Of a stretch of 64,000 bases of DNA, positions 27,563-45,996 are shown one piece after another. Origin of the DNA: Halorientalis marina (GTDB lineage: Archaea > Halobacteriota > Halobacteria > Halobacteriales > Haloarculaceae). The DNA lies in NCBI RefSeq assembly GCF_023028345.1, contig NZ_CP095487.1, forward strand, positions 1,364,001 to 1,428,000, given 5' to 3'. Numbering within the stretch: the stretch's first letter is position 1; every line of letters begins with the position of its first letter. The translations under genes and the position numbers were made by a program. The notes beneath the pieces were generated by a model. It searched no databases. It saw nothing but the letters and a program-made list of their open reading frames with translations, and was not told the DNA's origin.

Positions 27563-29134
27563 ATGTCTCCGGGCAGGGCCCAACGGCGCGGGTCCGACGA
27601 CGACCGTGGGCAGTCGAACGTCGTCGGCTACCTCCTGGTTCTCGCCATCATCATCGGCGGCACGTCGCTCGTGGTCGTGCTCGGTGCCGACGCGCTCGAG
27701 CAGACCAACAGCGTCTCCGAGCTGAAACGCGCCGAGCAGACGATGACGCTGTTCGACTCCAGGGCGGCGATGGTCGCACTCGGCACCTCCGACACCCAGA
27801 GTCTGAACGTCAAACAACAGAGCGGGCAGTTCGAGACCGACCCCGACGCCGGCTACATCTCTATCAAACACGTCAATTACGAGGAGGGAGCGACCGAAGA
27901 GGTGTACAACCAGTCTCTCGGTGCCGTCGTCTACGAGAACAACGACCGTCGGATCGCCTACCAGGGCGGTGGCGTCTGGCGGCTGGACCCGCGGGGCGAG
28001 GCCCGGATGGTTTCCCCGCCGGAGTTCCACTACCGCGGGGCGACGCTGACGCTCCCGATAATCCAGGTTCAGGGCCAGTCGAGCGCGAGCGGGTCGCCGT
28101 CGGTCACCGTCTCCAGCGACGGGGACGCGAGACGGGTCTACCCCAACACGAGCGCGGACCTCGGTGCTGGCAACAACGGTACCGGTGCACCCTACGACTA
28201 CCAGGGGACCGACCGCCACTACCGGAATCCGGTCAAGAACGGGACGGTCCGGGTGTTCGTTCACAGCGAGTACTACCAGGGCTGGGCGAACTACTTCGAC
28301 CAGCGCACGAGCGGCGAGGTCAGGGTTTACGACAACAACCAGACGGTCCGGCTGACGCTGGTCAGCCTCGGCGGCGCGCCCGGGCAATTCCCCATTCCGG
28401 ACGAGGGCGTCGGCCAGGAGATCAGTGGGGTCGGCGAGGGCCACCCGCTGAGGGAGTTCACTCTCTCGCTTGAACCGGGCAAGAACATCAACGGAGAGAG
28501 CCATTGGTCGATGTTTGCTTCCGAGAACAGCAGGGAGATGGAGATACACATCACCATGGAAAACAGCGGTGGCTGTCGGGACGCTACGATATCGTATCTT
28601 TATACCAGCCCGACGGAGTACCGCGAGTGGTCGACCCCTCCGATCAGTCCTAACACCACCGACGTTTATGAGTGCGTCCCCGACGGCTCCAGCAAGGTCG
28701 AGAGACTCTACTTCAACCTCTCGGGGACCGACGTCGATGCCGAATACGAAGACGTGACCGCCAACGGCGCGGCCAGCGGCAAGTGGTGCTTCTCTCCGAA
28801 CGAAACACCGGACTCTGGTATAGAAATCGACGACCACACAGAGGATCCCGGCACCGGCACGACGATCTCACCGGTGTCGGGCCACACTCAGTCGGTAAAC
28901 TGGACCACGAGCCACTACATCTCAAAGATGGGAACGAACTACGAACTCAAGGTCGGGGACAGCCAGGGATCGACTCCGTCGGCGGAGTGCGACGCGACAA
29001 CTAGCGGAGGAGGCAGTGATATGATCGAAGAGGGCGCTTCCGTCGGGTTCCTCGATTACGAGGAGGCCACCGGCGCGGAGTACATTACCTACCTTCACAT
29101 CACCGAAAACGAGATCGACGTCGACTTCGACTGA
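27563..29134 (+). CDS. Large pilin-like protein, locus A (DUF7289-like)
   Basis: This 523-residue protein has a prepilin-peptidase-like site (DRG/QSNVVG) followed by one hydrophobic helix (about 20-45) and a beta-rich external domain. Conserved landmarks shared with the 33566-37534 protein are LGAVVYENNDRR, GGGVWRLDP, MVSPPEFHY and a W-x-x-Y motif (GWANYFDQ, Trp 241). The family name DUF7289 is from memory and unchecked. Four cysteines in the C-terminal half may form disulfides. It probably assembles into, or caps, a type IV pilus-like fibre. It converges on the minus-strand operon of locus A with a 275-bp gap. The ATG at 27563 puts the processing site 18 residues in. Confidence 0.75.
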   Translation: MSPGRAQRRGSDDDRGQSNVVGYLLVLAIIIGGTSLVVVLGADALEQTNSVSELKRAEQTMTLFDSRAAMVALGTSDTQSLNVKQQSGQFETDPDAGYISIKHVNYEEGATEEVYNQSLGAVVYENNDRRIAYQGGGVWRLDPRGEARMVSPPEFHYRGATLTLPIIQVQGQSSASGSPSVTVSSDGDARRVYPNTSADLGAGNNGTGAPYDYQGTDRHYRNPVKNGTVRVFVHSEYYQGWANYFDQRTSGEVRVYDNNQTVRLTLVSLGGAPGQFPIPDEGVGQEISGVGEGHPLREFTLSLEPGKNINGESHWSMFASENSREMEIHITMENSGGCRDATISYLYTSPTEYREWSTPPISPNTTDVYECVPDGSSKVERLYFNLSGTDVDAEYEDVTANGAASGKWCFSPNETPDSGIEIDDHTEDPGTGTTISPVSGHTQSVNWTTSHYISKMGTNYELKVGDSQGSTPSAECDATTSGGGSDMIEEGASVGFLDYEEATGAEYITYLHITENEIDVDFD

Positions 29135-29160
29135 ACCCGACTCCTGACGCACCTTGGTAG

Positions 29161-29165
29161 TTTTT
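29161..29165 (+). terminator. Possible T-tract terminator after the 27563-29134 gene
   Basis: A run of five T residues (GTAGTTTTTGCG) begins 27 bp after the stop codon. It is short, so this is a weak call. Confidence 0.3.
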
Positions 29166-29409
29166 GCGACCGTTCGGCCAGCACCTGCCACCCGTCCAGT
29201 ACCCGCTGCGCCACGACGAGCTGACCGTCCCGGTCCAGGACCGGGACGATATCCCACACGCGCTCCCGTGACGGGGTCACGGTCCCGACGGCAGTCAATC
29301 GGCGACACGTCCACTGCTCCCCACCGATGCAATCCGCGAGCGGTGGCCCGGCCGCTCACGTCGGGCAGTATCCTCCCCTCCAGAAACGTGTCCCGAACGC
29401 GTCGGCCGC

Positions 29410-30174
29410 TCACCTGGCGATCTCGACGGTGACGGGGTAGACGGCGATGTAGAGCTGGTCGCGCGTGTCGAGGTCACAGGTCACCCGGTCGCGCTCTCCC
29501 GGCGCGTCGCCCAGCGAGCAGTCGGTGCCGGGTTCGCGCTCCAGGTACGACGCCCAGATGTCTGCCCGCGGCGAGGTTATCTCCACCTCGAGCTCGTCGT
29601 ACATCGACCCCTCGCCGGTGGTGATGATGCGGGGGGTGTTCCGAACGCCGCGCACGCGGAGCGTCGTCCCGCTGTACGTCGAGGGCTCGAACCCGTCAGT
29701 GTCGATCACCGGCAGGATCGTCCGGTCGGTCGCCATCTGGAAGGGCGGTTCGGTGACCACGATTCCGCCCTGCCGTTGCTCCCTGATGACGGCGCCGAAC
29801 TCGTAGCTGATCCGCGTGTCGTCCCCGCCGCGTGGCTGCCAGACGATCGGATTGACGGTCCGATTGACCGTGAAGTTGGTGTCCGGGTCGGAGCTGTCCC
29901 ATCCCGTGATGTTGATCGTTGCCGTGCCGGTCGTGTCGATCTGCGCGTCCTGGAGGCTGATCTCCGTCGCCCGGCTCGGGGCACCCTCCCGGTGGACGTC
30001 GTTGAGATTGTCGCTGAGCACGTCGAACGCCCGTTCGGCGTTCCGGCTCTGCTCGCCCTGTTTGATGTCGTTGAGTGCGTCCACGCCGGTCACGGAGACG
30101 ATGGCGATGACCGACGCCACGAGGCTGAATATCAGGAGGAAGCCGATCACGTTCGAGGCCGCGCGACGGTTCAT
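29410..30174 (-). CDS. Pilin-like membrane protein 1, locus A
   Basis: This 254-residue protein begins MNRRAASNVIGFLLIFSLV, a prepilin-peptidase-like site (RRA/AS) running straight into one membrane helix. The external part has SYEFGAVIREQRQGGIVV and the W-x-x-Y motif (IWASYLERE), linking it to the large pilin-like proteins and to its paralogue at 38028-38792. Two cysteines in the last 45 residues may pair. It is the promoter-distal gene of the five-gene operon and overlaps its upstream neighbour by four bases. Probable role: minor subunit of a surface fibre. Confidence 0.7.
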   Translation of the reverse strand: MNRRAASNVIGFLLIFSLVASVIAIVSVTGVDALNDIKQGEQSRNAERAFDVLSDNLNDVHREGAPSRATEISLQDAQIDTTGTATINITGWDSSDPDTNFTVNRTVNPIVWQPRGGDDTRISYEFGAVIREQRQGGIVVTEPPFQMATDRTILPVIDTDGFEPSTYSGTTLRVRGVRNTPRIITTGEGSMYDELEVEITSPRADIWASYLEREPGTDCSLGDAPGERDRVTCDLDTRDQLYIAVYPVTVEIAR

Positions 30175-30659
30175 GGGTCACCCTCCTGGATCGTGACCGT
30201 GCCGTCGTCACGGTACGTGAACACGACTTTCCCGCCGTCGACGGTGTTCCCCGTCACTGCCGTCCGGTTCGAGAACTCGACTGTCACGTTCAGCTCCGGG
30301 TTGTTCGTCGTCAGCCGGAGGTGTGGGTCCGCCCGTTCCACGAGCTCGATCTCGTAGGTCGACCCGGCGACGTTCGGCGGGAGGTCACGGGAAAAGTTGA
30401 CGGTGTCGCCGGGCTCCGTCGTGTTCGCCAGCCGGTCGGTCGCCTCCATGCTAGCGGCCACCTGCTGGCCGATGACCCTGAGTTCCGACCGCGACGCCTG
30501 TTCCTGCTGGTTGCTCACGAATCCCCCTCCGGCGATGAGCAGCCCGGTCACGAGCACCGTGGCGATGGCGATCCCGATAGTGTAGTTGAGCGTGACCGCC
30601 TGCCCGCGGTCGCCCGCGTTTGCCCGCCCATCTGTCGGCCCGCGGTCGGCCCTACGCAT
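30171..30659 (-). CDS. Pilin-like membrane protein 2, locus A
   Basis: This 162-residue protein has a basic/polar N-terminus, the site GDRG/QAVTLNYTIG and one hydrophobic helix, then a short beta domain with LRVIGQQVAASMEATDRLAN just after the membrane, resembling the neck helix of pilins. Its paralogue at 38795-39256 shares the ITRIDRLATT-type helix and overall size. Possibly DUF7266 by recollection. The ATG at 30659 overlaps the stop of the upstream gene; a GTG at 30668 is an alternative start. Confidence 0.7.
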   Translation of the reverse strand: MRRADRGPTDGRANAGDRGQAVTLNYTIGIAIATVLVTGLLIAGGGFVSNQQEQASRSELRVIGQQVAASMEATDRLANTTEPGDTVNFSRDLPPNVAGSTYEIELVERADPHLRLTTNNPELNVTVEFSNRTAVTGNTVDGGKVVFTYRDDGTVTIQEGDP

Positions 30660-31617
30660 CGGCCTCACCCGGGACCACCCGGAAGTCCGTCACGTACTCC
30701 AGCACGTCGCTCTCGTAGTCGACTTCGACCGTGACGCCCCAGATCGCCGGATCTATCCTCGGGCATCGGGAGTTCGGTCCGTAGTCGACGCCGGACGTAT
30801 CGACGTTGCTTCGGGTCTTGTTCACGATAAACGAGTAACTCCCGTTCGCGTTGTCGCTGTGGTTGAACTCGACCGCTTCGACGGTCCCGAGACCCTCGAA
30901 CGCGAGTTCGGAACACGATTCGGTCCCGCCGCTCCCGTCCGCGACCGTCCCGGCCGAGACGTTGATCCGGAACGGCGTGGCGCCCGAGGGGGGCCCACAC
31001 TCCGTCGTCGTTCCGGACGGCGTCTCGACCTGTATCGCGTCCCCGCTCCGGACTTTCATCTCCCACTCGTCGCCGTCGCCGTCCTCGGCAGTGACGTTGA
31101 ACGCGGTTCCGCTGTGGATCTCCGTGACGTTGAACTCCATCCCCCTGACGCCGTTCGCACTGCCGTTGATCGGTGTCCAGTTGGTCGCGTTGGTCGCACT
31201 GGTGAAGTTCCGGGAAGCGTTCGTCTGCTGTACCAGGGTTCCGTTCTCGAAGTCACGGATCGAATCGTCGACGACCTGGCCGTCCTCTAACTGTTGGTCT
31301 ATCATCACCGCTGTCATGTTCTCGAACGCCCACGTCACGTTCTTCGCTACCGGGTCGTACCCGCTCGCGTTCGTCGCGTTGTACTCGTTGACGTACTCGA
31401 TGATCCGTTCGGTCCCCGCTTCGAGGGACTGCTTGTGGATGACCGGGTCCGAGGTGGTCGTGCTCTCGCTTCTGGTCGCCAGGTTCTCGGTGTAGATGAC
31501 CGAGTTGAACACGAGCGCCAGGCCGACGAACACCACGGCGAGCGCGAAGCCCGTGACCAGCAGTATCTGCCCGCGCCGCTCGGTGTCCGTCGGCGCCAGC
31601 CGCCTCAGATCCGCCAT
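30652..31617 (-). CDS. Pilin-like membrane protein 3, locus A
   Basis: This 321-residue protein begins with TERRG/QILLVTGFALAVVF, a prepilin-peptidase-like site plus one membrane helix, followed by a helical neck and a beta-rich domain with many potential N-glycosylation sequons (NAT, NES, NRT, NGS types). Its counterpart in locus B is 39256-40239, which shares the RGQLLLVGG start and a similar length. Possibly DUF7261 by recollection. It overlaps the upstream gene by 13 bases, indicating coupled translation. Confidence 0.7.
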   Translation of the reverse strand: MADLRRLAPTDTERRGQILLVTGFALAVVFVGLALVFNSVIYTENLATRSESTTTSDPVIHKQSLEAGTERIIEYVNEYNATNASGYDPVAKNVTWAFENMTAVMIDQQLEDGQVVDDSIRDFENGTLVQQTNASRNFTSATNATNWTPINGSANGVRGMEFNVTEIHSGTAFNVTAEDGDGDEWEMKVRSGDAIQVETPSGTTTECGPPSGATPFRINVSAGTVADGSGGTESCSELAFEGLGTVEAVEFNHSDNANGSYSFIVNKTRSNVDTSGVDYGPNSRCPRIDPAIWGVTVEVDYESDVLEYVTDFRVVPGEADA

Positions 31618-32189
31618 ACGACCACCTCCACGCGGAGGACGCTGTAGGTCCCGCTCTCCGGCGACACGTCCGGGGCATAGAAGTTCGACCTGTTGACCGG
31701 AATCTCCGTCTCCCGGCCCTCGTGGTCGTACAGCGTCGCGTCGTCCGTGAGCGTCATCGTCCGCCCGGACCGGACCGCGTTGTCACTGGGCTCGCCCTGA
31801 TAGACCATCTCCTGGACGCGCCGCCCGCCGCCCGCCGTCTTGTAGATCACGTAGACGTTGTAGCCGATACCCTGGTCGCCGAAGGCACGCTCCAGGCGCT
31901 CCCCGAAGGCGTTCGGCGGGGCGCGACTGCTGTAGAAGTCGTCGCTCGATGTGTTGTGGAACTGGCCCGAGGAGTTGTTCCAGAAGAGGAGCGCGGGCCG
32001 CAGTTCGCCGTTCTCGGCGGCGCCCGAGAGGACGCCCTCGACGCTCGCCTGCTGCTGGTTCTCGATGTGCTGGCTCGACGTGCTCGCCGACAGCGGCGTG
32101 ACGGCCGTGATCTGGAGCGCAAAGAGGATGCTCGTCACCATCAACAGGGCGGCCACGATCGCTTCGAGTGTGTGTACCTGTGCTCTCAT
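31605..32189 (-). CDS. Pilin-like membrane protein 4, locus A
   Basis: This 194-residue protein starts MRAQVHTLEAIVAALLMVTS, with the cleavage-like site almost at the N-terminus, and continues ALQITAVTPLSASTSSQHIE. It ends in a strand VLRVEVVVWRI. Paralogue: 40233-40850 (MRDDRSQAYTLEGVFAAII; end EVRLVVW). The shared YTLE / HTLE pattern places a glutamate at about position +5 of the mature helix, as in type IV pilins, where Glu5 guides assembly. Possibly DUF7288 by recollection. One base separates it from the upstream gene. Confidence 0.72.
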   Translation of the reverse strand: MRAQVHTLEAIVAALLMVTSILFALQITAVTPLSASTSSQHIENQQQASVEGVLSGAAENGELRPALLFWNNSSGQFHNTSSDDFYSSRAPPNAFGERLERAFGDQGIGYNVYVIYKTAGGGRRVQEMVYQGEPSDNAVRSGRTMTLTDDATLYDHEGRETEIPVNRSNFYAPDVSPESGTYSVLRVEVVVWRI

Positions 32190-32190
32190 G

Positions 32191-32760
32191 TTACCACAGT
32201 TCGACGATCAGCGTCGCGTCCGTGCCGTCGATGTCGACGGTTCGGCGGGCCTTGACCGACGTTCCCGACCGCTTGGGCGGGGACGCCCCGCTCCGTAACT
32301 CCGTCCCGCCGCTACAGTTGTCGCGCTCGGCGAGCGTCCCCGAGGACTCGATACAGAGGATGTCCGCCCCGTCGCCGTCGTTCGAGAGGTTCCCCCGGAT
32401 CGTGACGTTCGCGAACTGCCTGTCCTTGAGGCCGAGTCGTTTCGTCAGGTCGCCGCTCTCGAATCCACAGCCGTCCGGCGGACTCCCACCGCCGTCTTTG
32501 AAGAACTCGCGCGTGCACGTCGCGTTCAGCGTGTGCGGACCCGCCGGATCGCCAAGCAGTCCCTCGGAGAGGCTGTCGGCGACCCGGTTCGCGGAGACGA
32601 TCTCCTCCTGGCCGCCCTCCGCGAACGGCTGGAGCGTCCCCGGGACGAAGATGAACACCGAAATGAAGACGATCAGAAACAGGCTCACACCGACGGCGAA
32701 ATCGAGCGTCGTCTGGGCCCGGTCGCGACGGTCGCGTGACTCCGCGACCCGACCACCCAC
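32191..32760 (-). CDS. Pilin-like membrane protein 5, locus A (first gene of operon)
   Basis: This protein of about 189 residues has DRRDRA/QTTLDFAVGVSLFL, then a single helix, and an external domain with four cysteines, ending ATLIVELW. Paralogue: 40852-41388 (DRGQTTQDYILGV; end YLVVRVW). Possibly DUF7287 by recollection. No ATG precedes the helix. I use the GTG at 32760, which gives a short N-terminus like the paralogue; a GTG at 32847 would add 29 Ser/Gly-rich residues. The operon promoter may be the minus-strand element GCATTATATCC near 32932-32942. Confidence 0.65.
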   Translation of the reverse strand: MGGRVAESRDRRDRAQTTLDFAVGVSLFLIVFISVFIFVPGTLQPFAEGGQEEIVSANRVADSLSEGLLGDPAGPHTLNATCTREFFKDGGGSPPDGCGFESGDLTKRLGLKDRQFANVTIRGNLSNDGDGADILCIESSGTLAERDNCSGGTELRSGASPPKRSGTSVKARRTVDIDGTDATLIVELW

Positions 32761-33042
32761 GTTACGAGCGCCGCCGTCTGGGGTCGACCGTGCCGACCCG
32801 CCTGCCCCAGAGGCGGATCGAGACCCCGATGATTGGGATGCCAACACCGTCGATCTGGTCCGTTGTATCCGATGCCGGGTCTGCCCGGGCCCGGCACTGC
32901 GTCGGTCTGCTATCGGGTGATTGTCTGTCCGGGATATAATGCTTCTGGCCGAACTACCGCCTGTGATAATGACTCCTTACACCGTGGCAGTTCGGGGGTC
33001 TGTCGGCTCTCGACCACCCATCCGTCTCACCGCTTCGATGGG

Positions 33043-33050
33043 TTTAAGAA
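33043..33050 (+). promoter_or_regulatory. Putative TATA box of tRNA-Ala
   Basis: TTTAAGAA lies 26 bp before the tRNA 5' end, the expected spacing for an archaeal tRNA promoter. Confidence 0.55.
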
Positions 33051-33076
33051 AACCCACCGGGTATCCGGTGATGCGA

Positions 33077-33148
33077 GGGCTCGTAGATCAGCGGTAGATC
33101 ATCCCCCTGGCACGGGGAAGGCCCCGGGTTCAAATCCCGGCGAGTCCA
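33077..33148 (+). tRNA. tRNA-Ala, anticodon GGC
   Basis: A full cloverleaf of 72 nt without CCA can be drawn: acceptor GGGCTCG pairing with CGAGTCC (one G-T pair), D stem GATC/GATC, anticodon stem TCCCC/GGGGA with loop CTGGCAC (anticodon GGC, reading GCC and GCT codons), variable loop AGGCC, T stem CCGGG/CCCGG with loop TTCAAAT, and discriminator A. No intron is visible. It sits between the two paralogous pilin loci; I see no second copy of its 3' end in the window. Confidence 0.95.
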
Positions 33149-33534
33149 TCGGAGCGACCGAGTTTTCGAGGGGGCGAGAATGAGTGAGACGCACTCGAGT
33201 CCCCGGACCGGCCCGTCGGCGTGCCAGCTTCGTTGCGCCGGCCTCTTGACCATCGTTTCTACCAGTGATACTATCAAAAACTGGTGAAGGGTACCACTCA
33301 CTCCACAGGAATACGGCTTTCGCGGCTGTCGACGCCGCTGGAACCCGTCCGCCGACTCGATTGCTGTCTCGTATATAATCTGTGACAAACGAGCCACGAC
33401 GGCGTTCAATTACACTACATTTTCGGATTCGAGACTCGAACTCGTCGAGGGTCGCGATTCGACAATCTGCAGTAGAGGCGCCTGAAACCCCCGGTACTGG
33501 CACCTCTGTGTCGACGGTGGAAACTGACGATGGA

Positions 33535-33540
33535 TTTATA
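33535..33540 (+). promoter_or_regulatory. TATA box of the 33566-37534 gene
   Basis: TTTATA lies 25 bp before the ATG at 33566, fitting a leaderless transcript and a separate promoter for the large pilin-like gene of locus B. Confidence 0.6.
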
Positions 33541-33565
33541 GGTACGTATCAGTAATGGAAGCCGT

Positions 33566-36500
33566 ATGAAAAATTTGGGGGCCGCACGCACAAGTGATGA
33601 GCGAGCGGTATCAAATACGATAGCAGTGGTCCTCCTCTTCGGAATCGCGATCGTCGGCGCTCTCCTGGTGGTTACCTTGGGCGGGAGCGCGGCCGACGAG
33701 GTTCGACAGCAGAACGACATGGAAGTGGCCCAGCAGTCGATGCAGGCTCTCTCGAGCCGTTTGTCTGGGCTGAAGACGGGCGACGAAGAGACAGCATCGT
33801 TCAGTCTGCCGGATCGGATGCAGGGGAACACGGAGGTCATCCGACAAACTTCGATCGAACTCGTCGCGGAAACGGAGAGCGGAACGACGTGCACGACCGG
33901 AGATGTCCAGATCTCGACGCTCGTCTACGAAAACCGCGACAACGAGCTGGTCGGTTACGAGGCAGGTGGTGTCTGGCGGAGCTATCCGGACGGCGGATCG
34001 ACGATGGTATCGCCGCCGGCCATCAGCTACCGGAACGGTCGGGTCGAACTCTCGATGGCGAACGTCGAGGGGCAGATGAACAGCCAGATCCAGGCACGAC
34101 TCGACCGACTCGAAACACGGCGGTTCAACGAGAATCTCACCCAGTCCCTGTTCGTCGACGAGACGGCCGACGAACTCCAGTCCGGCTCGTCGACATCCGG
34201 CATCAAGTGTGCCCCCGAAGACCTGGATTCGGTCACGATGACTGTTTCGGGGAGCCCCTTCTCGACTGCGTGGAGTAACTACGCGAACGACCAATGGGAC
34301 TCACGGCCCCAGGCGTCGATCGTCTCTGGCCCGGATCCGCTCACGGTCGAGTTCGATCTCGGCGATACGCGCCGAGCGGAGTTCGCCGTCAACGATAGTG
34401 ACCTCACCCCGACACACGAAGAAGGCGAGCAACTGTCGTTCGATCCGGCGATCAGAAACGTCGGCGGGGAACCCGGGAGCAGTACTGTCGAAACTCGACT
34501 GTACGTCGAGGACGGCGACGGATGGTCCGAGCAGGCGTCTTCGACCGAAACGACGTCGACGCTCCTCGTCGAGGAGAACGAACGACTCGACTTCCAGTTT
34601 GCCGGCTCCAACTTCGATGCGGACGCGGACGGCGAACCGGACGAGGGAACGGACTACAAGATAGAAATCGACACCGGTGACGAGGTCAGCAGTACGATCA
34701 TCAACGTCACTGACGATCCCGCGGATCTCGACATCACCGTCGACAGTTCCACCCCCAGTTCGGTCAGTCAGACCGACGACGAGGACTTCGTCGTCAACGT
34801 GGAGAACACCGGCGCCGTCCCGACCACCCGTGACTTCCAGTTCCACTTCGACACTGACGACGACGGGAGTATCGCCGACGATGTCATCGAAGTGAAAAAC
34901 GCGACCACGATCCCAGCGGGATCGACCCGGACTCTCAGTTTCGCGATCCCGACAGTTACACAGGCCCCGAATCTCGATGCGAAGGTCAGGACTGCCGCTC
35001 TCGATCCGGACGGCGACCTCCCCGAGAGTCCGGTGACACGGATTTCGGTCGGTGACAACCCGTACTACGCGATCGACGACCTCGGTCTATCCGGGTCGAA
35101 CACGCCGCTGAAAGATACGTCGATAACGGTCGAAGCGGACGTAGAGAACACGGGCGGTACGCCCGCTCAGCCTGGCACAGCCAGCGAGCGGGTGACGTTC
35201 GAGATACGGCACGCCGGGAACAGGACACTCGTCGAGGACGCAAGCACGAGCGGGACGGTGCTGACCGACGATCAGGCAGGGGTGGTTGCCCCCGGTAACA
35301 CCGAAACGTTCGATTACACGTTCTCCGGTATCGAACATCCCGGTGAGTACGTCTACACACTGGAGACCGCGAACGTCTCCCAGACCGGCGGCTTCAGTGT
35401 CGTCGAATCCACCAGTCCCTACTTCCTCGTCTCGGAGGTAGAACTGACGCCGGAACCGGCCATCCAGGGCGATACGGTCAACGTCTCGGCGCTCATCACG
35501 AACACGGGCGCGACGACCGGCACGCAGGACGTCACGGCGTCGCTCAACGGCACCGAGATGGACGTGGTCTTGGACGAAACCGTCGATAGCGGCAATTCCG
35601 AGCGCGTGAATCTAACGTTCGACACCGACAGTGCGAACATCGTTGCCAACGAGGTCACCGTCGAGACCGCCGATACCTCGCTCTCGAGAACGCTCAACGT
35701 CTATCAAAACAGTTCGGGGATCGGGATCGGCGGGAGCGGGAACGCGACGATCAACACGACCCGCAACATCACGGCCAGCCTGACGGTTCTGGGGACCGCT
35801 CTGACTGGGACTGGCTACTGGTTTGACGCCCCGGATTACTGGGAGGGCCCCCACTATATCAACCGAGGTCCCGTGACCATGCACATCTATACCAGCAACG
35901 AGTCGAACCCCAACGAGCGGATCTACGCGTGGGGGCCGGAAACTGATCTTAACACGCCGACCATGCGCGTCCGCCAGATTCAGGAGAGCCCGATGCTCAA
36001 CAAGTCCGTTACCGTTGGCCCTGGGACGCAACTATCCGTATTCGCCGCTTCGTACCAAGGCACTTCGTGTGCTTCCAACGACGTTGACATCGACTTCGAT
36101 AGGGGCGTCGGCGCCCCCGACGACGGCGTCAGGACGTACTACGACGAGACGACCGACACATACGAGGATGCGAACCGACTTCGGTGCGATTTCGACACGA
36201 ATGATGCGTGGCACAACGTCAGCAAGAGCAGCAATCAGGGGAACCTGAAGATCCTGAACCGGACCGACAGCAAGATCCCCAATTTCGAGGAAGCCCGACC
36301 GGACCAGCGGAGCGCGGCTGACATCATCTCCGAGAGCAGTCGCGTCGACATCAACAGCACGGGACACGTCCAGCTCGAACCCGACCAGCGTCTCCTGCTA
36401 TACGAACTCTCGGAAGACAACGCCGAGTACGAGAACGCGGACACGGCGGGCGACCCGGACTATAACGACGCCGTCGTGCTGTTCGAGGTCGTCGAGGTAC

Positions 36501-37534: not shown

Positions 37535-38027
37535 CAGCAACCGGGACCCGGCACTCACATACCCGCATCTCGTCGGTCACTCCTGGGCTGTCTACCGACC
37601 GATACCCCGGAGCGATACCCTCGCTCTCCTTTCCTGATAGGACGCCTCCTCTTCCGGGACCGCTCCTGGTTTGGCCTTTCGAGATAACACGAACTCCGGA
37701 CCCGACCGAGCCATTCGACGCTCGTCGGAACTGGGGCAAACGGGGCGGTGCCGAGACGCGAGCGGCGCGACCGCTCGTCGTCACCGCGCTCTCACCCCTC
37801 CCGAACGGCGGAGCGGCCCGAACACTGCCCAATCCGATCGGAACGGACCGCCTGGAACCATGGGCGAATCGCGGCCCCACGGGAGAAACCGTTTCGTCGA
37901 ACCCCGCCCGGCCGTCCGCGGAGCCGTGTAGCTCACCACACGGACGATGCCGTGCACCTCACAGCCGACCTCGTGTTCGGATCGGGCGGGCCGCACCTGG
38001 GATTCTGGGCAGGGCACGTGGTCTCGT
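37535..38027. other. 493-bp gap between convergent genes, no gene seen
   Basis: Between the 3' ends of the giant pilin-like gene and the locus B operon I find no supported gene, RNA or clear repeat. The corresponding gap in locus A is 275 bp. Codon-like periodicity in the last 200 bp is weak and no frame resembles a known protein. Confidence 0.55.
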
Positions 38028-38792
38028 TCAGTCGATCGCTTCGACGTTGATCGTCGTCTGTCGGATGTAGACGCGGTTGACATTGCACGTATAGACGCCG
38101 TTGCTGTCCTGTACCCAGTCCTGTTCGGAACCCAGCCGGTCGAGATAGTTGTCCCACGCGGACGCGTAACGCGAGTCAGTCACGTCGATCGTAATTTCCG
38201 TCGCCTTGGGTGAACTACCGGGAGACGGATAGAGTCGACGTGTCTCGGTCTGACGTCCGGTGACCTGGACGGGGTCTTCGACGCTGATACTTACCGACCC
38301 CGTGAGCTGGACGACGGATAGAATTGCCGTGCCATCCTCACAACTGAACACGGGGCGATGCCGGATTATGCTCCCCTGTTCTCCGACCTGGAACAGGGCC
38401 CCACTCTCGTAGGCGATCTCGTCGGCGGAGCCACTGCGACTGACCGTGAGTGCGTTCGTTTCGATGTCGAACTCGCGTGGACTACCGGGTCCGGTCGTTT
38501 CTTTCACTCGTAACTCGATACCGGATTCCACGAGATCGAGGTTCGCACCATCGATGCCGACGTCGAGTGATCGCTCCGGGACGCCCTGCCTGTGGATGTC
38601 CTCGAACGTCTCCGCGACGCCACGCATCGCTCGATCGGCGGTCTGGACGTCCTCGTCGTCGCTGAAGTCTTCGAGCGTATCGAATCCGACGAGGTAGATC
38701 AGGCTAACACTGCTGGCGATGATCGAGAACATGAGGATGAACCCGATCAGATCGGAGACACTCCGTTCCGTCGGTCTAGTAATTCCTGACAT
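38028..38792 (-). CDS. Pilin-like membrane protein 1, locus B
   Basis: This 254-residue protein has TERS/VSDLIGFILMFSIIASS, a prepilin-like site with Ser in place of the usual Gly/Ala before the cut, then one helix and a neck (VQTADRAMRGVAETFEDIH). The external domain has IAYESGALFQVGEQGSIIRH, PVFSCEDG and the W-x-x-Y motif (AWDNYLDRL). It is the counterpart of 29410-30174 in position, length and motifs. The ATG at 38792 is chosen; a GTG at 38798 would overlap the upstream stop and cannot be excluded. Confidence 0.7.
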   Translation of the reverse strand: MSGITRPTERSVSDLIGFILMFSIIASSVSLIYLVGFDTLEDFSDDEDVQTADRAMRGVAETFEDIHRQGVPERSLDVGIDGANLDLVESGIELRVKETTGPGSPREFDIETNALTVSRSGSADEIAYESGALFQVGEQGSIIRHRPVFSCEDGTAILSVVQLTGSVSISVEDPVQVTGRQTETRRLYPSPGSSPKATEITIDVTDSRYASAWDNYLDRLGSEQDWVQDSNGVYTCNVNRVYIRQTTINVEAID

Positions 38793-38794
38793 TG

Positions 38795-39256
38795 TCACCT
38801 GCTGGTCGGTTGCAGCGAGATACAGTCGTCCGAATTGTCGTAGACGATTCTGATCGGCCCGCCGTTGATAGAGCGTGGGCAGACGTCGGAATCGAGTGAT
38901 AGCTGTACCTGCCGGGAGAGTCCCGATGCGTTCGCGTACAGGACTGCCGTCCCGCTGCGCTCTCGCAACGTGATATCGTACCCCTCGCCGGCGATCCGGG
39001 CGGGGAACGTCACGCGCGAGGAGAGATCGGCGTCCGTGTTCCCGTCGGTGGTGGCGAGTCGGTCGATACGGGTAATCTCGTTCGTAACGCCCTCGCTCAC
39101 GTCTGCCAGCCCCTTTTCGGTGACGCGTTCGGTCTGTCGGTCGAGTAACTGCCCGCTTCCCAGCAACAGACCTGCGATCAACAGCGCGGTGATTCCGAGA
39201 CTCAACGCGTGTGTGAGCGGGATCGACGCCCCGCGACTATCGTCACGCAGCCACAT
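38795..39256 (-). CDS. Pilin-like membrane protein 2, locus B
   Basis: This 153-residue protein starts MWLRDDSRG/ASIPLTHALSLG, prepilin-like, with one helix and a neck helix (GVTNEITRIDRLATTDG), then a small beta domain with RVTFPARIAGEGYDITL and two cysteines. Counterpart of 30171-30659. The ATG at 39256 overlaps the stop of the next upstream gene. Confidence 0.7.
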   Translation of the reverse strand: MWLRDDSRGASIPLTHALSLGITALLIAGLLLGSGQLLDRQTERVTEKGLADVSEGVTNEITRIDRLATTDGNTDADLSSRVTFPARIAGEGYDITLRERSGTAVLYANASGLSRQVQLSLDSDVCPRSINGGPIRIVYDNSDDCISLQPTSR

Positions 39257-40239
39257 CAGCTCCCACCTCCGGTCGCGTTGAGGTAGATCGTCGTCCGATA
39301 GTCCAGCTCCGGTCGCCGGTAGGTGAGGTCCACCGCTGGACGGAGTACCGGGTTCGTGATCTCCGGTTGAACGCCTCCGCCCGACTGCGTGTCGAGATAG
39401 CGGCTGTCGGTGCCGATCCGGTACGTGCCCTTCGGGAGTTTTCCGGCACCGAGACCATTTTGCTCGTTGTCGATTTCCACTGTGTAGGGACGCGAGACGT
39501 ACTCGTTGAACTCGAAGGCCGGGACGGTCGTCGTTCCCGAACCCGGGTCCGCCTCCAGTTCCCCGGTCCCGAGGTTCACGCTCGCGCCGGGATCGACTGA
39601 CTCGACAGCTCGCTGCTCGCCGTTCACGATTGCAATGAACGCAGGCCCATCTATCGGATCGGTCTCGGAACGGTTAATCCGCAGCTCCCACACGTTCCCG
39701 TCACTACCTGTTACGCGGATCGTCGTGTTCGGTCTATTTGCACCGTTGTTATCCGGAAAGTCATCGACTGTGAATTCCATCGGCGCTAGGATCATCATCT
39801 CGTTGCCGACAATCCAGTCGTTTGCCACCGTCGGATCGGCAAGCTGGAACGTATCGGTCGACGTCTGTTCGAGCAACCGCCCGTTCTCCGAGGCGCTTTC
39901 GTTGAACGTCGCGTTGACGAACACGATTCCGTCCTCGAAGGTCATGTTCGAGTACAGTTGCGCGTACGTGGAGACGTTCGACCGGTACGCACTCTCCAGT
40001 TTCCCGGAGTCGGTGACGTCGGTTCCGGCGGCGACGCGCGACGCCATCCGCTGGAGGTCCTGTCTGACCATTTCCTGGGTCCGCTCGGCGTTCTGGAGGG
40101 CCTGCTGGTTCCCCTGTGATCCGATGGTGTCGTTGAACTGCATCCCGTTCAGCAGGACGACGGTCCCCAGGATGACGATCCCGAGGACGATGCCACCGAC
40201 CAGAAGCAACTGCCCTCGGTCACGCGAGCCAGTCACCAT
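39256..40239 (-). CDS. Pilin-like membrane protein 3, locus B
   Basis: This 327-residue protein starts MVTGSRDRG/QLLLVGGIVL, prepilin-like, with a helix followed by a long neck (QGNQQALQNAERTQEMVRQD) and a beta-rich domain with several N-glycosylation sequons. Counterpart of 30652-31617. The ATG at 40239 is chosen because it gives the short N-terminus of the paralogue and overlaps the upstream stop by seven bases. Confidence 0.7.
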   Translation of the reverse strand: MVTGSRDRGQLLLVGGIVLGIVILGTVVLLNGMQFNDTIGSQGNQQALQNAERTQEMVRQDLQRMASRVAAGTDVTDSGKLESAYRSNVSTYAQLYSNMTFEDGIVFVNATFNESASENGRLLEQTSTDTFQLADPTVANDWIVGNEMMILAPMEFTVDDFPDNNGANRPNTTIRVTGSDGNVWELRINRSETDPIDGPAFIAIVNGEQRAVESVDPGASVNLGTGELEADPGSGTTTVPAFEFNEYVSRPYTVEIDNEQNGLGAGKLPKGTYRIGTDSRYLDTQSGGGVQPEITNPVLRPAVDLTYRRPELDYRTTIYLNATGGGS

Positions 40240-40850
40240 ACGACCAGACGCACCTCCACGATGTTGTACAGTGGCTTGTCGGGTTCGGCATCGGGCATGT
40301 AGAATGGGGACGTATCCTTCAGGGAGTCGAACTCGGTGCCGCACTCGCGGGCGTCGGTTTCCGTGGTGTACAGGCTCGACTGGTCGTCGTAGACGGCGAT
40401 CCGGCGACTCACGATGGCCGCGGCGTCTGAGGGGGCCGCGATATCACCGCTGGTCTCGAACTGACGTGATGCGACGACACGCTCTTGCTCACCGGAGCCG
40501 TCCCAGTAGTAGAAGTAGAGATTGTACTCGTAATCCCGCTCGTCGAACGTCTTGTTCAGCATCCGTTCGAGCGTAGTGGACCGTGGCGTTCCCGTATTGA
40601 GGCGGCCCCCGTCGAACGCCCGTTTCCCGGCAGTCCCGTAGCATCTGACGGCACGGCTCAGTGTTCCGTTGCTCGCAGCCAGATCGAGCGTATCCGCGGC
40701 CTGGCTCCGGAGCTGCTCGGTCCGTTCTGCGGACTCACTCGTCCAGGGCCCCACGTCCACGATCTGGAGTCCGTACAGCATCGCCGAGAGGACGATTATC
40801 GCCGCGAACACGCCTTCTAGAGTGTACGCCTGTGATCTGTCGTCGCGCAT
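40233..40850 (-). CDS. Pilin-like membrane protein 4, locus B
   Basis: This 205-residue protein starts MRDDRS/QAYTLEGVFAAII. The conserved Y-T-L-E places a glutamate near position 5 of the mature helix as in classical type IV pilins. It ends NIVEVRLVVW, matching the C-terminal strand of its counterpart 31605-32189. Two cysteines occur (RCYGTAG and ARECGTEF). One base separates it from the upstream gene. Confidence 0.7.
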   Translation of the reverse strand: MRDDRSQAYTLEGVFAAIIVLSAMLYGLQIVDVGPWTSESAERTEQLRSQAADTLDLAASNGTLSRAVRCYGTAGKRAFDGGRLNTGTPRSTTLERMLNKTFDERDYEYNLYFYYWDGSGEQERVVASRQFETSGDIAAPSDAAAIVSRRIAVYDDQSSLYTTETDARECGTEFDSLKDTSPFYMPDAEPDKPLYNIVEVRLVVW

Positions 40851-40851
40851 T

Positions 40852-41388
40852 TTACCACACCCTCACCACCAGATAGCAGGCCGGACTGCACTCGCTGCTC
40901 GGATCCTCGCTGAACGTGACAACACGTGTGCGTGTCGCTGCGGACTGGTTGTCGTAGTCGTCACCGAACTCGTAGAATCCACGCCCCTCGAAATACACCG
41001 GTTCACGGATGTCGCTGTCACCTTCGAGTGTGAACTCCGATGCATTGACCACGGCTACGTTGACGTTCGGTTTCGCCTGCCGTTCGGTCTGCGTGTTTAG
41101 CCCGGCCCGTTGCCTGAACCGCTCGAAGTCGGTCGAGAGGTTCGAATACAGGTCGTCCGAGCTACCACCAGTCTCGTTCCGGAGGATGTTCTGTTTCCCG
41201 GGAACGCTGTACTCGGCGACGATGTACTCACTGGCTCGTTCGGCCTGTTCCTGATCGATTCCGTCGACGGAACTCTCGTACGACTCGAACACCCCCGGCA
41301 GGAACCCGAACACGAACAGGACGGTCGCGAGCATGATGCTCACGCCGAGGATGTAATCCTGCGTCGTCTGTCCCCTATCCCGTGTCAT
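40852..41388 (-). CDS. Pilin-like membrane protein 5, locus B
   Basis: This 178-residue protein starts MTRDRG/QTTQDYILGVSIM, prepilin-like, with a single helix and an external domain ending CSPACYLVVRVW. Counterpart of 32191-32760. It follows the pilC-like gene with a 12-base gap, so the operon reads pilB - pilC - pilin 5 - 4 - 3 - 2 - 1. Confidence 0.7.
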   Translation of the reverse strand: MTRDRGQTTQDYILGVSIMLATVLFVFGFLPGVFESYESSVDGIDQEQAERASEYIVAEYSVPGKQNILRNETGGSSDDLYSNLSTDFERFRQRAGLNTQTERQAKPNVNVAVVNASEFTLEGDSDIREPVYFEGRGFYEFGDDYDNQSAATRTRVVTFSEDPSSECSPACYLVVRVW

Positions 41389-41400
41389 GATTCGATCCCG

Positions 41401-43437
41401 TTACCCCACCAGCATCCAGGTGATCAGCGCCAGCGTCGGCAGTGCGACGGCGAACTTCACGCCCGAGATCAGATCGACCTCCCGGATGTACCCGGCGATG
41501 AACGACGAGAAGATCGCCTGGAGCGTGACGGCGTGGAAGAACAGCATCGACAGCATCCCCGTGTCGACGTTGCTCCCGAACTGCCCGCCACCGGCCGCGC
41601 TCCCGCCACTGCCGCCCGCGGAGCTTGCCTGGTTCGCCAGCCCGGACATCACGTCGAGGAACTGCGTTTTCAGCAGCGCCATCACGCCGAGCAGGGTGAG
41701 GTAGGTCATGATGATGATGACCATCTGCATCCGGGTCCGGGACTTCCGTTCCCGGTCGATGTCGTCCTGGTTCTCGGAGGCCTGTGCCGCGGTCGTCAGG
41801 ACGTCCTCGATCTGACTCGAGGCCTCCTGGGCCTTGCTGATGAGCTTGACCGTCCGGGCCAGCCGCGGGATGTGGTACTTGTTGTTGAACTCCCGCATCG
41901 CGTCTTTCAGGTTGGTGCCGTACTTGACCTTCGCGTGCATCGTCTCGAACTCGTCGGACAGCGTCCCCGAGGACGTGTCCGAGACGACGCGCAACGATTC
42001 GAGCAGCGTCATCCCGGTGTCGTTGGCCGAGGAGAGCTTCCGGAGGTTCTCGGAGAGGTCGCCGATCACGCCGCGTCGCGACCGGACGTTCCACTCGTAG
42101 AAGATCGCCAACGGCAGGAAGTTGATGTAGAGTGGGACGTACAACCAGAAGAACGTCCCGCCCACCGGGTTGGCGATCATCCCGTCGATGGACAGCGGCG
42201 CGAGGCCGTACAGGATCGCGAGGCCAACCGCGATCAGCGACAGCGGGACGGTAAAGACGAGGATGATCGTCGGGTTGTCGCGGAAGAAGATGTGCGGGCG
42301 TGCGAGAATCTGCCCGAGTTCGTAGGACCGCTCTTTGCTCTTGACTTTCTCGAAGAGGGCACGCTCGCCGGTGAACCGCTCGACGAGGCCGAGGTTCATG
42401 ACGTCGAGGCCCTCGCGGACGGCAACGTCGTCGCGGACCTCGTCCGGGCGGAGGTAGCCGTCACCGATCTCGTCCTGGGTGACCGTCGAGACGAGCACCA
42501 GGAAGCCGAGGCTGATCAGCGGGATCAGTCCGTAGACGGTCCCATAGAGGAGCATGTCCTGGGCCTGCCCCATCATCGACATGATGACGAGGATGATGAT
42601 GAGAAGCAGAGGGAACAAAGAGAGGGTCATGTACATCTCGCCGAACAGTTCCATCGTCTCGAGGACCATCTCCTGTTCCTGCTTGGCCGTCCGCATGTGT
42701 TTCTCCTTCTGGTCCTCGAGGAAGCTCGTCATGTCACCCCCGGAGTTGATGATCGAGAGCATGTCCGTCAGGAACTGCGCGAGTTCGTCGCTCGGGGTCT
42801 GGAGCGCCTGGTTGCGGATGGCGGTCCGGTAGTCCGTATCGAAATACTCCGTCTCCAGGACGATGGACTGGAACTCCTGGGAGACCTCGCCGTAGGTGTC
42901 GTCGGCTTTCGCCATCGCCTGCAGGATTTCCAGTTGGTTCAGGCCCCCGACCGAGAGGGCGTACATGAACGAGATCGAGTCCGACAGCAGGACGTTGATC
43001 TCGCGTTTCCGGGCGCCGGCACGGAAGTAGGGGATCGACACGAGCGACCCGAAGCCGATCCCGAAGCCGATCAGCCCGAACACGAGACCCGTGACGATGA
43101 TGAGGATCGGGACCTTCAGCGTCAGCAGGATCTCCGGAATCTGGGACTCCCCGAGCCCGAGCAGTGTCGGCGCATCGGAGAGGAAAATCGTGAAGATGGC
43201 GTAGCCGAGGATGGTTCCGACCAGCCACAGCGCGAGGCCGGCCAGCGCGCCTACCGCGAGCGCGCGCGAGAGGAACAGTTCGACGTTCTGGGGCATCCGC
43301 GCCTGGGCCAGTTTGTTCTCGACGGAGGCGACGAAATCGCCCTCGCCGTCGAACAGGTACTGGTAGAGCGGGTAGAACGTGTCACCGATACTACTCGTCC
43401 CACTGACGGTCTTCCCGCTACGCGTGTCGAGGCTCAT
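41401..43437 (-). CDS. Archaeal type IV pilus / type II secretion platform protein (PilC/TadC family)
   Basis: This 678-residue membrane protein holds two T2SSF domains (about 145-275 and 455-580), each ending at hydrophobic helices; about nine membrane segments are visible. Archaeal pilus platforms usually have this double arrangement. Landmarks are SDSISFMYALSVGGLNQLEI and SSANDTGMTLLESLRVVSD. The protein anchors the ATPase at the membrane and draws pilin subunits out of the bilayer. A Gly/Ser/Ala loop lies between the last two helices. It is separated from the ATPase gene by three bases. Confidence 0.9.
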   Translation of the reverse strand: MSLDTRSGKTVSGTSSIGDTFYPLYQYLFDGEGDFVASVENKLAQARMPQNVELFLSRALAVGALAGLALWLVGTILGYAIFTIFLSDAPTLLGLGESQIPEILLTLKVPILIIVTGLVFGLIGFGIGFGSLVSIPYFRAGARKREINVLLSDSISFMYALSVGGLNQLEILQAMAKADDTYGEVSQEFQSIVLETEYFDTDYRTAIRNQALQTPSDELAQFLTDMLSIINSGGDMTSFLEDQKEKHMRTAKQEQEMVLETMELFGEMYMTLSLFPLLLIIILVIMSMMGQAQDMLLYGTVYGLIPLISLGFLVLVSTVTQDEIGDGYLRPDEVRDDVAVREGLDVMNLGLVERFTGERALFEKVKSKERSYELGQILARPHIFFRDNPTIILVFTVPLSLIAVGLAILYGLAPLSIDGMIANPVGGTFFWLYVPLYINFLPLAIFYEWNVRSRRGVIGDLSENLRKLSSANDTGMTLLESLRVVSDTSSGTLSDEFETMHAKVKYGTNLKDAMREFNNKYHIPRLARTVKLISKAQEASSQIEDVLTTAAQASENQDDIDRERKSRTRMQMVIIIMTYLTLLGVMALLKTQFLDVMSGLANQASSAGGSGGSAAGGGQFGSNVDTGMLSMLFFHAVTLQAIFSSFIAGYIREVDLISGVKFAVALPTLALITWMLVG

Positions 43438-43440
43438 CGA

Positions 43441-45996
43441 TCACTCCCCCTCTTCGGCTTCGGCGCCCGCCTTGGTCACGAACTGGCCGAAGTCGATCTC
43501 GGCGTCGTCCGCCTCCTCTTCTTCGACCGGTTCGATGTCATCCTGGGTGTCGATGCCGGACAGCGCCTTGACGATCTCGGGCGTCTCCTTGCTCTTGAAC
43601 CGGTCGAACAGCGGTTCGGCGTTCTCCAGGATCTCGTCGGTGTCCCCGAGCATTTCCTCGTTCGCTTCCGGCCGCGGGACCATCTCCTCTTTCTCGGGGT
43701 CGATGTCGATCTTGACCGACTCCATCTCCCGGAGGTCCTCGAGGCTCTCGGAGAGCTTGTCGTGGGCGATCAGCGTGATGATCGTGTCCGGGTCGTTGAT
43801 GAACGCCTGGAGGGTCGCTGCCACCTGCTGGTAGGTGTTGATGTTGTTGTTGATCAGGTACGCGAGGACGACCTTCCGCTTGAACAGTTCCTCGTCGAGT
43901 TTCTCCTGGTTCCACCCGCGGTCGAACTTGATCTCCTCCAGGGTGTTGGACTGGCCCATCTGGATGAACGTGTCCGTCTCGGCCTGCCACTGGTAGACGT
44001 CCCTGACGTTGATTTCGTCGTGTTCCGCGGAGTACTCGTTGATCTCGGTCAGGGTCTTGTTTCGGCGCACCTTCTGGCCGTCGTTCCGCGTCTGTGTCTG
44101 GATGGAGACGAGGTCCAGCGCCGTAAACAGCGTCTTCGAGACGTTGATCGGCTCGGTCGTGAACCGCTTGATGACCTCGCCCACCGAGTCGGCGTGGAAC
44201 GTGGTGTAGGTGGTGTGGCCCGTTGACATGACCTGAAAGAGGGTCCGCCCCTCTTCACCACGAATCTCACCCATGACGATGTAGTCCGGCCGTTGCCGCA
44301 GTGCGGCTTCCAGCAGGTCGAACTCGTCGACGTCGCCCGTGTCGTCCTCGCCGAAGGACGGCCGGGTGACGGACGCGACCCAGTTGCGCTGGGGCAGTTC
44401 GACCTCTCGGGTGTCCTCGATGGAGACGATCTTCGCGCTGGAGGGGATGAAAAGCGAAACGGCGTTCAGTGAGGTGGTCTTCCCCGACGCCGTCCCGCCC
44501 GCGAAGATGAGGCTCTTGTTGTTCTCGATACAGAGCCAGAGGAACGCCATCTGGTCGAGCGAGAAGGTGTTCCAGTTGATGAGGTCGATGGGGGTGAAGG
44601 GGACGTCCTTGAACTGACGGATGGTGTAGTTGGTCCCGTGGTCGGAGACCTCGCTGCCGAGCGTCAGCTGTGACCGCGATCCGTCCGGGAGCGTGGCGTC
44701 GACCTGTGGCTGTCGTTTGGAGATGCCCTTCCCGGACCGCTGGGCGAGCTTGACGACGAAGTCGTCGAGTTCCTCCTTCCCGTGTTCGACGTTGGAGATG
44801 ATCTGTTCGTAGTCGGTGTGGTAGACGAACACACGCGAGTTGTACCCGTTACAGGAGATGTCCTCGACGTTGATGTCGTGTTTGATCGGGTCGATTTTCG
44901 AGAAGCCGATGAAGTCGCGTTTGAGCTGGTAGAGCAGTTTCTCGACCTGGTACTCGGAGAGCGTATCGGGGTCCTCTTCGAGGATGACCGGCTCGGGGCG
45001 AGCCTTGATCCCGCCGAGGTCGCCCTGCTTCTCCGGGAGTTCGACCTCCATGCCGAGCATCTGTTTCATCTGCCCGATGGTGCCGACCGACTGGCCCACG
45101 TCGTCCTCGTAGAGGTCGTACCGTTCGAGGAGGCGTTCGGTCTCGCGCTGGATGACCTGTGCGCGGTCCTCCTCGCTGCCCTCGACGACGACGTCGTCCT
45201 CGCTGTACTTGATCGCCGTCTTGAGCTTTCCAGAGAGGAACTCGAACAGCTCGCTTTCGATAGAGTTGAGGTGTGGCTCGATGACGTAGTACTTCTTCTC
45301 GTTTTCCTTCCGGGAGTGGAAGATAACGACACAGGAGTAGGGCTTGTTTACCCAGTAGCGTTCCAGTTCGGTAAAGTGAGATTTCTTCCGCAGCGGCACC
45401 GCTTTCTCCAGATCGTAGCGATTGACGACCGTCGTTCGCCCGTCGACGGTCGAGAAGAAGGCGTCCTCGTCCAGGTCCTCGTTGACGTCGACGGTCCGCT
45501 CGTCGAGGACATCGTCGACTTCACTCGCCAGTTCCTCGGCGAAACTCAGCACGCCCTCTACCTCGGTGGGGTCGAAGCCGAGTTCCTCCCCGGGCTGGAA
45601 GGGCTTTTTCTGCCCGTCGCTCGTCGTCGGCGGCTGCCCCTCCGAGTCGTAGTAGTACTCACGCTTGTAGTGTTCCCAGGTGTAGGCGTCCTTGGTGACC
45701 GGGAACTGATCGGGGTTGAGGTATCGCTGCCAGGGCTCGTCGATCCCCTTGGCGGCGCTGGCGCCCTGCAGGAGCTTGTCCTCCATCTTCCGCGGGTCGA
45801 AACCCAGGAACTCGGTCCTGTCGAACGGCCCGCCCGTGTGGAACTCCCGACGGAAGTCTTCCCACGTGTACTCACCGACCGCGGCGCGCTCGACGCGGGC
45901 GAGGACGGCTTCCGCCTCCGTATCACCGGCCTCGTCGCCCTGGGCCTCCGTCTCCACGCCGTCTGACTCGCCCCCCTCTTTGTCATCAGTTGCCAT
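43441..45996 (-). CDS. Type IV pilus assembly / secretion ATPase (PilB/TadA family)
   Basis: This 851-residue cytoplasmic hexameric ATPase powers pilin assembly. The C-terminal T2SSE domain shows Walker A FAGGTASGKTTSLNA (near residue 500), the Asp box VSIEDTREVELPQRNW, Walker B PDYIVMGEIRGEE and the His box STGHTTYTTFHAD. The N-terminal half is about 300 residues longer than in typical bacterial PilB, acidic and partly coiled-coil. It also has an approximately 100-residue C-terminal acidic extension. It heads the locus B operon, with a TATA-like element within 50 bp upstream. Motifs are intact, so it should be active. Confidence 0.92.
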   Translation of the reverse strand: MATDDKEGGESDGVETEAQGDEAGDTEAEAVLARVERAAVGEYTWEDFRREFHTGGPFDRTEFLGFDPRKMEDKLLQGASAAKGIDEPWQRYLNPDQFPVTKDAYTWEHYKREYYYDSEGQPPTTSDGQKKPFQPGEELGFDPTEVEGVLSFAEELASEVDDVLDERTVDVNEDLDEDAFFSTVDGRTTVVNRYDLEKAVPLRKKSHFTELERYWVNKPYSCVVIFHSRKENEKKYYVIEPHLNSIESELFEFLSGKLKTAIKYSEDDVVVEGSEEDRAQVIQRETERLLERYDLYEDDVGQSVGTIGQMKQMLGMEVELPEKQGDLGGIKARPEPVILEEDPDTLSEYQVEKLLYQLKRDFIGFSKIDPIKHDINVEDISCNGYNSRVFVYHTDYEQIISNVEHGKEELDDFVVKLAQRSGKGISKRQPQVDATLPDGSRSQLTLGSEVSDHGTNYTIRQFKDVPFTPIDLINWNTFSLDQMAFLWLCIENNKSLIFAGGTASGKTTSLNAVSLFIPSSAKIVSIEDTREVELPQRNWVASVTRPSFGEDDTGDVDEFDLLEAALRQRPDYIVMGEIRGEEGRTLFQVMSTGHTTYTTFHADSVGEVIKRFTTEPINVSKTLFTALDLVSIQTQTRNDGQKVRRNKTLTEINEYSAEHDEINVRDVYQWQAETDTFIQMGQSNTLEEIKFDRGWNQEKLDEELFKRKVVLAYLINNNINTYQQVAATLQAFINDPDTIITLIAHDKLSESLEDLREMESVKIDIDPEKEEMVPRPEANEEMLGDTDEILENAEPLFDRFKSKETPEIVKALSGIDTQDDIEPVEEEEADDAEIDFGQFVTKAGAEAEEGE

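Follow-up and report, generated by a model that had tools for sequence, protein, structure and literature searches.

The window analysed here, 64,000 nucleotides of the haloarchaeon Halorientalis marina (contig NZ_CP095487.1, positions 1,364,001 to 1,428,000), contains two neighboring loci of type IV pilin-like genes, locus A (27563–32847) and locus B (33566–45996, including its motor genes). Re-reading of the sequence returned the coordinates, strands and gene order that an earlier note on this DNA had given for both. In each locus, one large DUF7289 gene on the plus strand converges on a minus-strand operon in the order DUF7287-DUF7288-DUF7261-DUF7266-DUF7289, and the two members of each A/B pair belong to the same Pfam family.

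The large subunit of locus A (27563–29134, plus strand) has a DUF7289 pilin-like N-terminus with a class III signal (DDRGQSNVVGYLL) and a DUF7308 C-terminal module. Its minus-strand partners, all assigned by Pfam, are the small DUF7289 protein (29410–30174), DUF7266 (30171–30668), DUF7261 (30652–31617, with a BLASTP match to its locus B counterpart, B4), DUF7288 (31605–32189, in which alignments reveal an invariant R-x-Q...E signal) and DUF7287 (32191–32847, whose start is uncertain and whose pilin signal lies near residue 41). No ATPase or TadC gene is found in locus A, which is thus a motorless pilin cassette. As previously noted, a tRNA-Ala separates the two loci; ARAGORN places it, as tRNA-Ala(GGC), at 33077–33148 on the plus strand.

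Locus B begins with a large subunit (33566–37534, plus strand), a proposed tip adhesin whose DUF7289 N-terminus is followed by CARDB (Ig-like) repeats in four Pfam stretches. Its minus-strand pilin-like genes, again assigned by Pfam, encode the small DUF7289 protein (38028–38798), DUF7266 (38795–39256), DUF7261 (39256–40239), DUF7288 (40233–40850) and DUF7287 (40852–41388). The reading frame of the DUF7261 gene is open to 40344, and its start is probably the inner ATG at about 40239. The adjacent genes for a PilC4-type platform protein (TadC/T2SSF; 41401–43437) and a PilB4-type assembly ATPase (T2SSE, PilB3_C; 43441–45996), both on the minus strand, form one motor operon (Pfam: PF00437, E 3e-31; PF00482, E 1e-28; PilB3_C, E 3e-7). 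NCBIfam returned no match for the pilins and only ArlI/ArlJ-type matches below cut-off for the motor.

The motor genes are confined to locus B, as the earlier note stated: T2SSE and T2SSF are both present there, and none of the genome's five T2SSE matches adjoins locus A. Of the five, one is the window's PilB, one belongs to a pair read here as PilB3-like, and one, beside an archaellin-like gene, is attributed to the archaellum; the genome has two more. A 640-amino acid ATPase elsewhere in the genome (G000 L078, 5735–11128), with two pilin-like neighbors and no PilC detected, possibly represents another type IV filament system.

Kinship of the two pilin sets

Every A/B pair consists of reciprocal best hits in BLASTP searches within the window (E 1e-6 to 3e-22), which, together with the Pfam families, bears out the proposed one-to-one correspondence. 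The large and small DUF7289 proteins also match each other (A1 and A6, E 1e-9), and the window holds all four DUF7289 genes of the genome. Six genes per set were correctly counted by the earlier note; however, they are not six different subunits by family, because DUF7289 occurs twice in each set and the families number five. Identity between A and B proteins is 22–33%, and the two sets fall in different clades of the pilin tree described below; they are therefore old homologues and not recent tandem duplicates. A third DUF7261 match in the genome (G000:C1:781776-782288, distant from the window) scores 220 bits; the window's two DUF7261 proteins score only ~30 bits and may form a separate subfamily.

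The pilin-like genes behind the motor share an R-G/A-Q-type cleavage motif before a hydrophobic stretch, as expected of class III signal peptides. Automatic counting of this signal worked for the large protein and for DUF7288, DUF7266 and DUF7289 but gave poor results for DUF7287 and DUF7261, whose motifs in the window were read by eye. An invariant glutamate appears in the alignments of DUF7288 only; the automatic count of an acidic residue near mature position 5 is too crude for naming the major pilin.

The earlier note knew these proteins only as domains of unknown function. The system nevertheless fits the common haloarchaeal PilB4-type type IV pilus already described in 2016 and exemplified by the Haloferax volcanii locus HVO_1160 (clade 2, Fig. 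4B, Makarova et al. 2016; PMC4858521). Shared features are an ATPase with halobacterial extra domains, TadC and several pilins of its own. The described pilus also has one pilin family (arCOG02911) that is duplicated and variable in length, to which DUF7289, duplicated and ranging from about 240 to 2296 amino acids, may correspond. H. volcanii served as a control for DUF7288, DUF7289 and DUF7261, and other Haloferax loci have the same plan. PilB4 and PilC4 are expressed in Haloferax (PMC4371748; PMC7305310; PMC12542753), and we found no study of these pilins in the literature.

In a first survey of Halobacteria, DUF7288 was present in 55 of 59 genomes, and its neighborhoods nearly always consisted of the motor followed by the same genes (ATPase, PilC, DUF7287, DUF7288, DUF7261, DUF7266, DUF7289), with a convergent large DUF7289 gene in most families. 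The order was the same in nearly all of the 63 sets, which supports the view that the set is inherited as a unit. Independent occurrence of the six genes, which the earlier note named as a refutation, is seen only in part: in family f2 DUF7261 lies outside the operon, and in families f3 and f7 the large DUF7289 gene is unlinked, but both are still present in those genomes.

Replacement of the cassette behind the motor

In order to compare pilin sets with motors, we used 86 genomes of the window's family, as grouped by our tool (Haloarculaceae plus genera such as Halorarius, which NCBI assigns to Natronomonadaceae), and counted sets by DUF7288 and motors by PilC4 relatives at E < 1e-120. DUF7288 was found in 79 of the 86. 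Sets and motors stood at 2∶1 in 40 of these 79 genomes, 1∶1 in 28, 2∶2 in four, 3∶1 in three, 1∶0 in two, and 3∶2 and 1∶2 in one each. Pilin sets therefore outnumber PilC4 motors in 44/79 genomes, mostly at 2∶1; a second set is common and no accident of this genome, and the claim of one motor for two sets describes a recurrent state among relatives. Genera with multiple sets include Haloarcula, Halorientalis, Halosimplex, Halapricum, Halomicrobium and others. PilC identity to the window's protein is 84% in Halorientalis persicus and 81% in H. salina, both of the window's genus code. PilC4 is present in 77 of the 79 set-bearing genomes, and the seven set-less genomes, all of one genus and thus a single phylogenetic event, also lack it. 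In this genus (code g34), all seven sampled genomes are without DUF7288 and without a relative of PilC down to E 1e-40. One genome with three sets and one motor, G050, has two motorless sets around a 2296-amino acid DUF7289 protein beside the motor (L057, 2743–19334) and a third in the slot that we call slot 2.

The chromosomal order around these sets is conserved: aspC-type aminotransferase, ATPase, PilC, the set and large gene of slot 1, tRNA-Ala(GGC), the set and large gene of slot 2, rps15, and rpS3ae. Slot 1, behind the motor, holds locus B of the window; slot 2, from tRNA-Ala to rps15, holds locus A; and tRNA-Ala forms the boundary between them. In Halorarius and Halomarina there is a single set, and the interval between tRNA-Ala and rps15 is empty. 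At least three genera have the same tandem state as the window, and rearrangement has split slot 2 from the motor by ~72 kb in genome G058 and by ~150–170 kb in Haloarcula. In genome G041, a remnant consisting only of DUF7287 and a truncated large gene sits at the same place, and the slot 2 set of Halorhabdus salina is also reduced. A recent chance adjacency of A and B is ruled out by the order motor-set-large-tRNA-Ala-set-large-rps15 in at least three genera, partly decayed in G041.

The two slots have different histories. In a tree of joined DUF7287, DUF7288, DUF7266 and small DUF7289 proteins from 82 sets (LG+C20, posterior mean site frequency), the 24 slot 2 sets all group in a single clade with support of 100, requiring one change and spanning about 10 genera. 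The 27 motor-side sets of the family require 12 changes, at least 10 of them forced by the starred branches, and are scattered over several remote clades, even inside one genus. The motor tree (ATPase plus PilC) follows the genera, and the family core has support of 100. Approximately unbiased tests reject a single clade of motor-side sets in three genera (p = 4e-13, 4e-87 and 4e-6), for groups picked after the first tree and under a simpler model. Paralogy by tandem duplication, as read from the window in the earlier note, does not survive this comparison: the closest kin of A are the A-type sets that occupy this slot in relatives, and those of B are further motor-side sets. Three main types stand out among the motor-side sets: type i comprises window B and those of most Halorientalis and of Haloarcula; type ii those of G115, two Halapricum and Halorhabdus, with a motorless copy in Halosimplex; and type iii those of G041 and G129 along with unlinked sets such as that of G002.

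The replacement is most directly visible between genomes G041 and G096. Between aspC and the stop codon of PilC, their DNA is 96.6% identical; homology is then absent across the set and large gene of slot 1 save for one 58-bp patch, and 94% identity resumes 133 bp ahead of tRNA-Ala. At the protein level, PilB is 97.1% and PilC 99.1% identical, and the five pilins are 27–31% identical. In seven further pairs that we compared, homology also stops within ~65 bp of the PilC end; the stop codon of PilC is the edge of the exchanged segment in relatives. Judged by these alignments and trees, the motor stayed while the entire cassette behind it was exchanged on several occasions. The A set has, on the same evidence, been inherited vertically with its lineage, as a resident of the Haloarculaceae core. 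A-type sets of relatives are under purifying selection, with ratios of nonsynonymous to synonymous substitution (dN/dS) mostly of 0.02–0.4 and at most 0.58, a few values being spoiled by the choice of frame.

The 58-bp patch, 88% identical, joins the convergent gene ends of the G041 slot 1 set (L064, 12438–12495) to the G096 slot 2 set (L198, 17325–17381); it is possibly a terminator or a trace of recombination.

Large subunits, motor use and rival readings

The large subunits differ by type in both length and C-terminal module. Those of A (471–615 amino acids), type ii (715–786) and type i (1252–1446) do not overlap in length; those of type iii (650–767) overlap type ii. C-terminal regions match in 21/21 pairs within type ii, 10/10 within type iii, 18/28 within type i and 126/300 within A, and in at most 25% of pairs between types. 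Each protein consists of a DUF7289 base with an extra C-terminal module: CARDB repeats in type i, VWA in type ii, DUF7305 in type iii, and DUF7305 or DUF7308 (both without known function) in A-type and canonical sets. Each replacement has brought a different large adhesin-like protein.

AlphaFold2 models of two locus A proteins, the small DUF7289 (a helix at residues 3–62 and a beta head) and DUF7288 (helices at 2–28 and 35–59 and an alpha/beta head), each with a mean predicted local distance difference test score of 91.8, confidently predict a pilin-like shape of N-terminal helix and globular head. The pilin assignment draws on this shape, the signal peptides and the locus. A fiber with several fixed subunits and one special large subunit, as envisaged earlier, is supported. 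We suggest that the large subunit is a modular tip adhesin; its tip position and adhesive role, and which subunit is the main one, are inferences. In type 4 pili of Streptococcus sanguinis, the modular tip pilins PilB (VWA) and PilC (lectin) are likewise large pilin-like proteins with an adhesive module, VWA among them, on the C-terminus, and are encoded with small pilins (PMC9934059). That system is bacterial and has no paired cassettes on one motor; the likeness drawn here is one of working and does not bear on kinship.

Two arrangements bear on which motor drives locus A. In Halosimplex and G099, a PilB4-type motor has only an A set beside it (in addition, G099 contains a separate remote system, and a second set without a motor lies elsewhere in Halosimplex). 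In G002, G073 and G139, one set and one motor are unlinked; provided the system works there, action at a distance is normal. These genomes strongly suggest that A is served by the same PilB4/C4 motor as B.

We consider it likely that this PilB4-type locus combines one motor with a resident cassette A and an exchangeable cassette B, the latter contributing a modular tip adhesin as its large subunit. The common plan, the slots, the swaps, the vertical descent of A, the module classes and the purifying selection on A-type sets are established by comparison of sequences. Each cassette encodes a large modular subunit along with five small pilin-like ones. In the proposed working, a prepilin peptidase would cut all six prepilins, and the PilB/PilC motor would polymerise either cassette into a fiber. 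The large subunit would sit at the tip and bind a surface or cell through its module (CARDB, VWA or DUF7305 on the motor side, DUF7308 or DUF7305 in sets of the A type), and a cassette swap would give the same engine a different binding target.

Several observations weigh against this reading. The genome contains a PilB3-like ATPase/TadC pair without pilins of its own (locus L076), and in H. volcanii PilB3-C3 can make up for a missing pilB1-C1 pair (PMC6491452), so A could use PilB3/C3. In the pilin tree the deep branches have weak support, so it does not show from which lineages the swapped cassettes came. For the two predicted subunits, DUF7288 and DUF7289, Foldseek gave no significant match to a solved pilin; Foldseek and VIA-align returned weak, unspecific matches (ribosomal S3-like, sensor domains, Top7), and a profile search for relatives of DUF7288 with solved structures found none.

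The PilB3-like pair and the H. volcanii rescue would also suit two independent type IV pili, B on PilB4/C4 and A on another motor such as PilB3/C3, with an adjacency that is merely historical. We regard this as unlikely, since A-type sets adjoin a PilB4-type motor with no other set there in Halosimplex and G099, and PilC4 accompanies nearly all sets and is missing from the set-less genus, counted as one event. It is less probable still that A and B subunits enter one hetero-polymer, or that one set merely regulates the other or serves as its decoy. The same families could co-assemble, and relatives retain the two sets together under purifying selection, but the 28 genomes with a single set and a single motor, and the independent swapping of the sets, argue otherwise. 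That locus A is a decaying, functionless relic, as its partial deletion in G041 and Halorhabdus salina might suggest, is very improbable: none of the six A genes of the window is disrupted, related intact A sets have the low dN/dS ratios given above, and the A clade has been kept across its genera. Least credible is a recent tandem duplication in which one locus is a copy of the other that lost the motor genes. Adjacency, plan and orientation fit such an origin, yet it is refuted by the low A/B identity, the well-supported separate clades, and the presence of the A clade in the same slot of other genera.

The resident-plus-exchangeable architecture on a shared motor, with type-specific large subunits, appears to be new; we found no description of it in the literature searched. 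Two complete pilin sets on a single motor, with a fixed slot for one set, replacement of the motor-side set as a unit with its large subunit, and the modules of that subunit resolved here all differ from the 2016 account (PMC4858521), in the consulted portion of which we found none of them. A hypervariable module of Thermococcales (PMC8416519) is similar, in that it is an archaeal locus with a large variable Ig-domain protein and mentions CARDB; however, the available part of that account has no shared motor and does not present it as a pilus cassette. Domains of unknown function thereby become a testable machine, with one motor, a constant and an exchangeable kit, and a variable adhesin-like part on the large subunit. 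Near-identical strains with the same motor and different pilins, and genomes in which one motor has unlinked pilins, are natural experiments on how wide a range of pilin sets a motor accepts, a question that was posed in 2016 and put to the test in Haloferax in 2019. The swapped part may be the surface that viruses, mating partners and biofilm neighbors would meet.

tRNA genes and a possible route of exchange

In many relatives, copies of the last 24 nucleotides of tRNA-Ala itself (0–3 mismatches) lie within 85–270 bp after the gene. In Halapricum hydrolyticum, such a 24-nucleotide copy marks the far end of an insert of ~10.7 kb (L194, 6924–17706) that adjoins the 3′ end of tRNA-Ala(GGC) and lies between that gene and slot 1. 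The insert contains genes for a tyrosine (phage-type) integrase, a NotI-like restriction enzyme, a DNA methylase and an HsdR-N protein. These scars and the integrase-bearing insert indicate that tRNA-Ala is an integration site in relatives, and the break point of the G041 swap coincides with a tRNA-Ala 3′ copy. The window has no such copy with up to 3 mismatches, and no integrating element with a pilin cassette was seen in relatives.

We speculate, with considerable doubt, that the slot from the PilC stop codon to tRNA-Ala(GGC) is a cassette exchange site fed by elements that integrate at the tRNA 3′ end. The adhesion specificity of one motor would then change by swapping five pilins and a tip adhesin, as in serotype switching, while a second, constant pilus is kept. 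The swaps would be accounted for just as well by ordinary homologous recombination in the conserved flanks, PilC on one side and tRNA-Ala on the other.

A second tRNA gene, tRNA-Arg(CCG) (37803–37875, minus strand; ARAGORN), lies between the convergent parts of locus B. It is probably incidental; no tRNA-Arg(CCG) was found at that place in the relatives examined, and many have a tRNA-Arg(CCT) beyond the ATPase gene.

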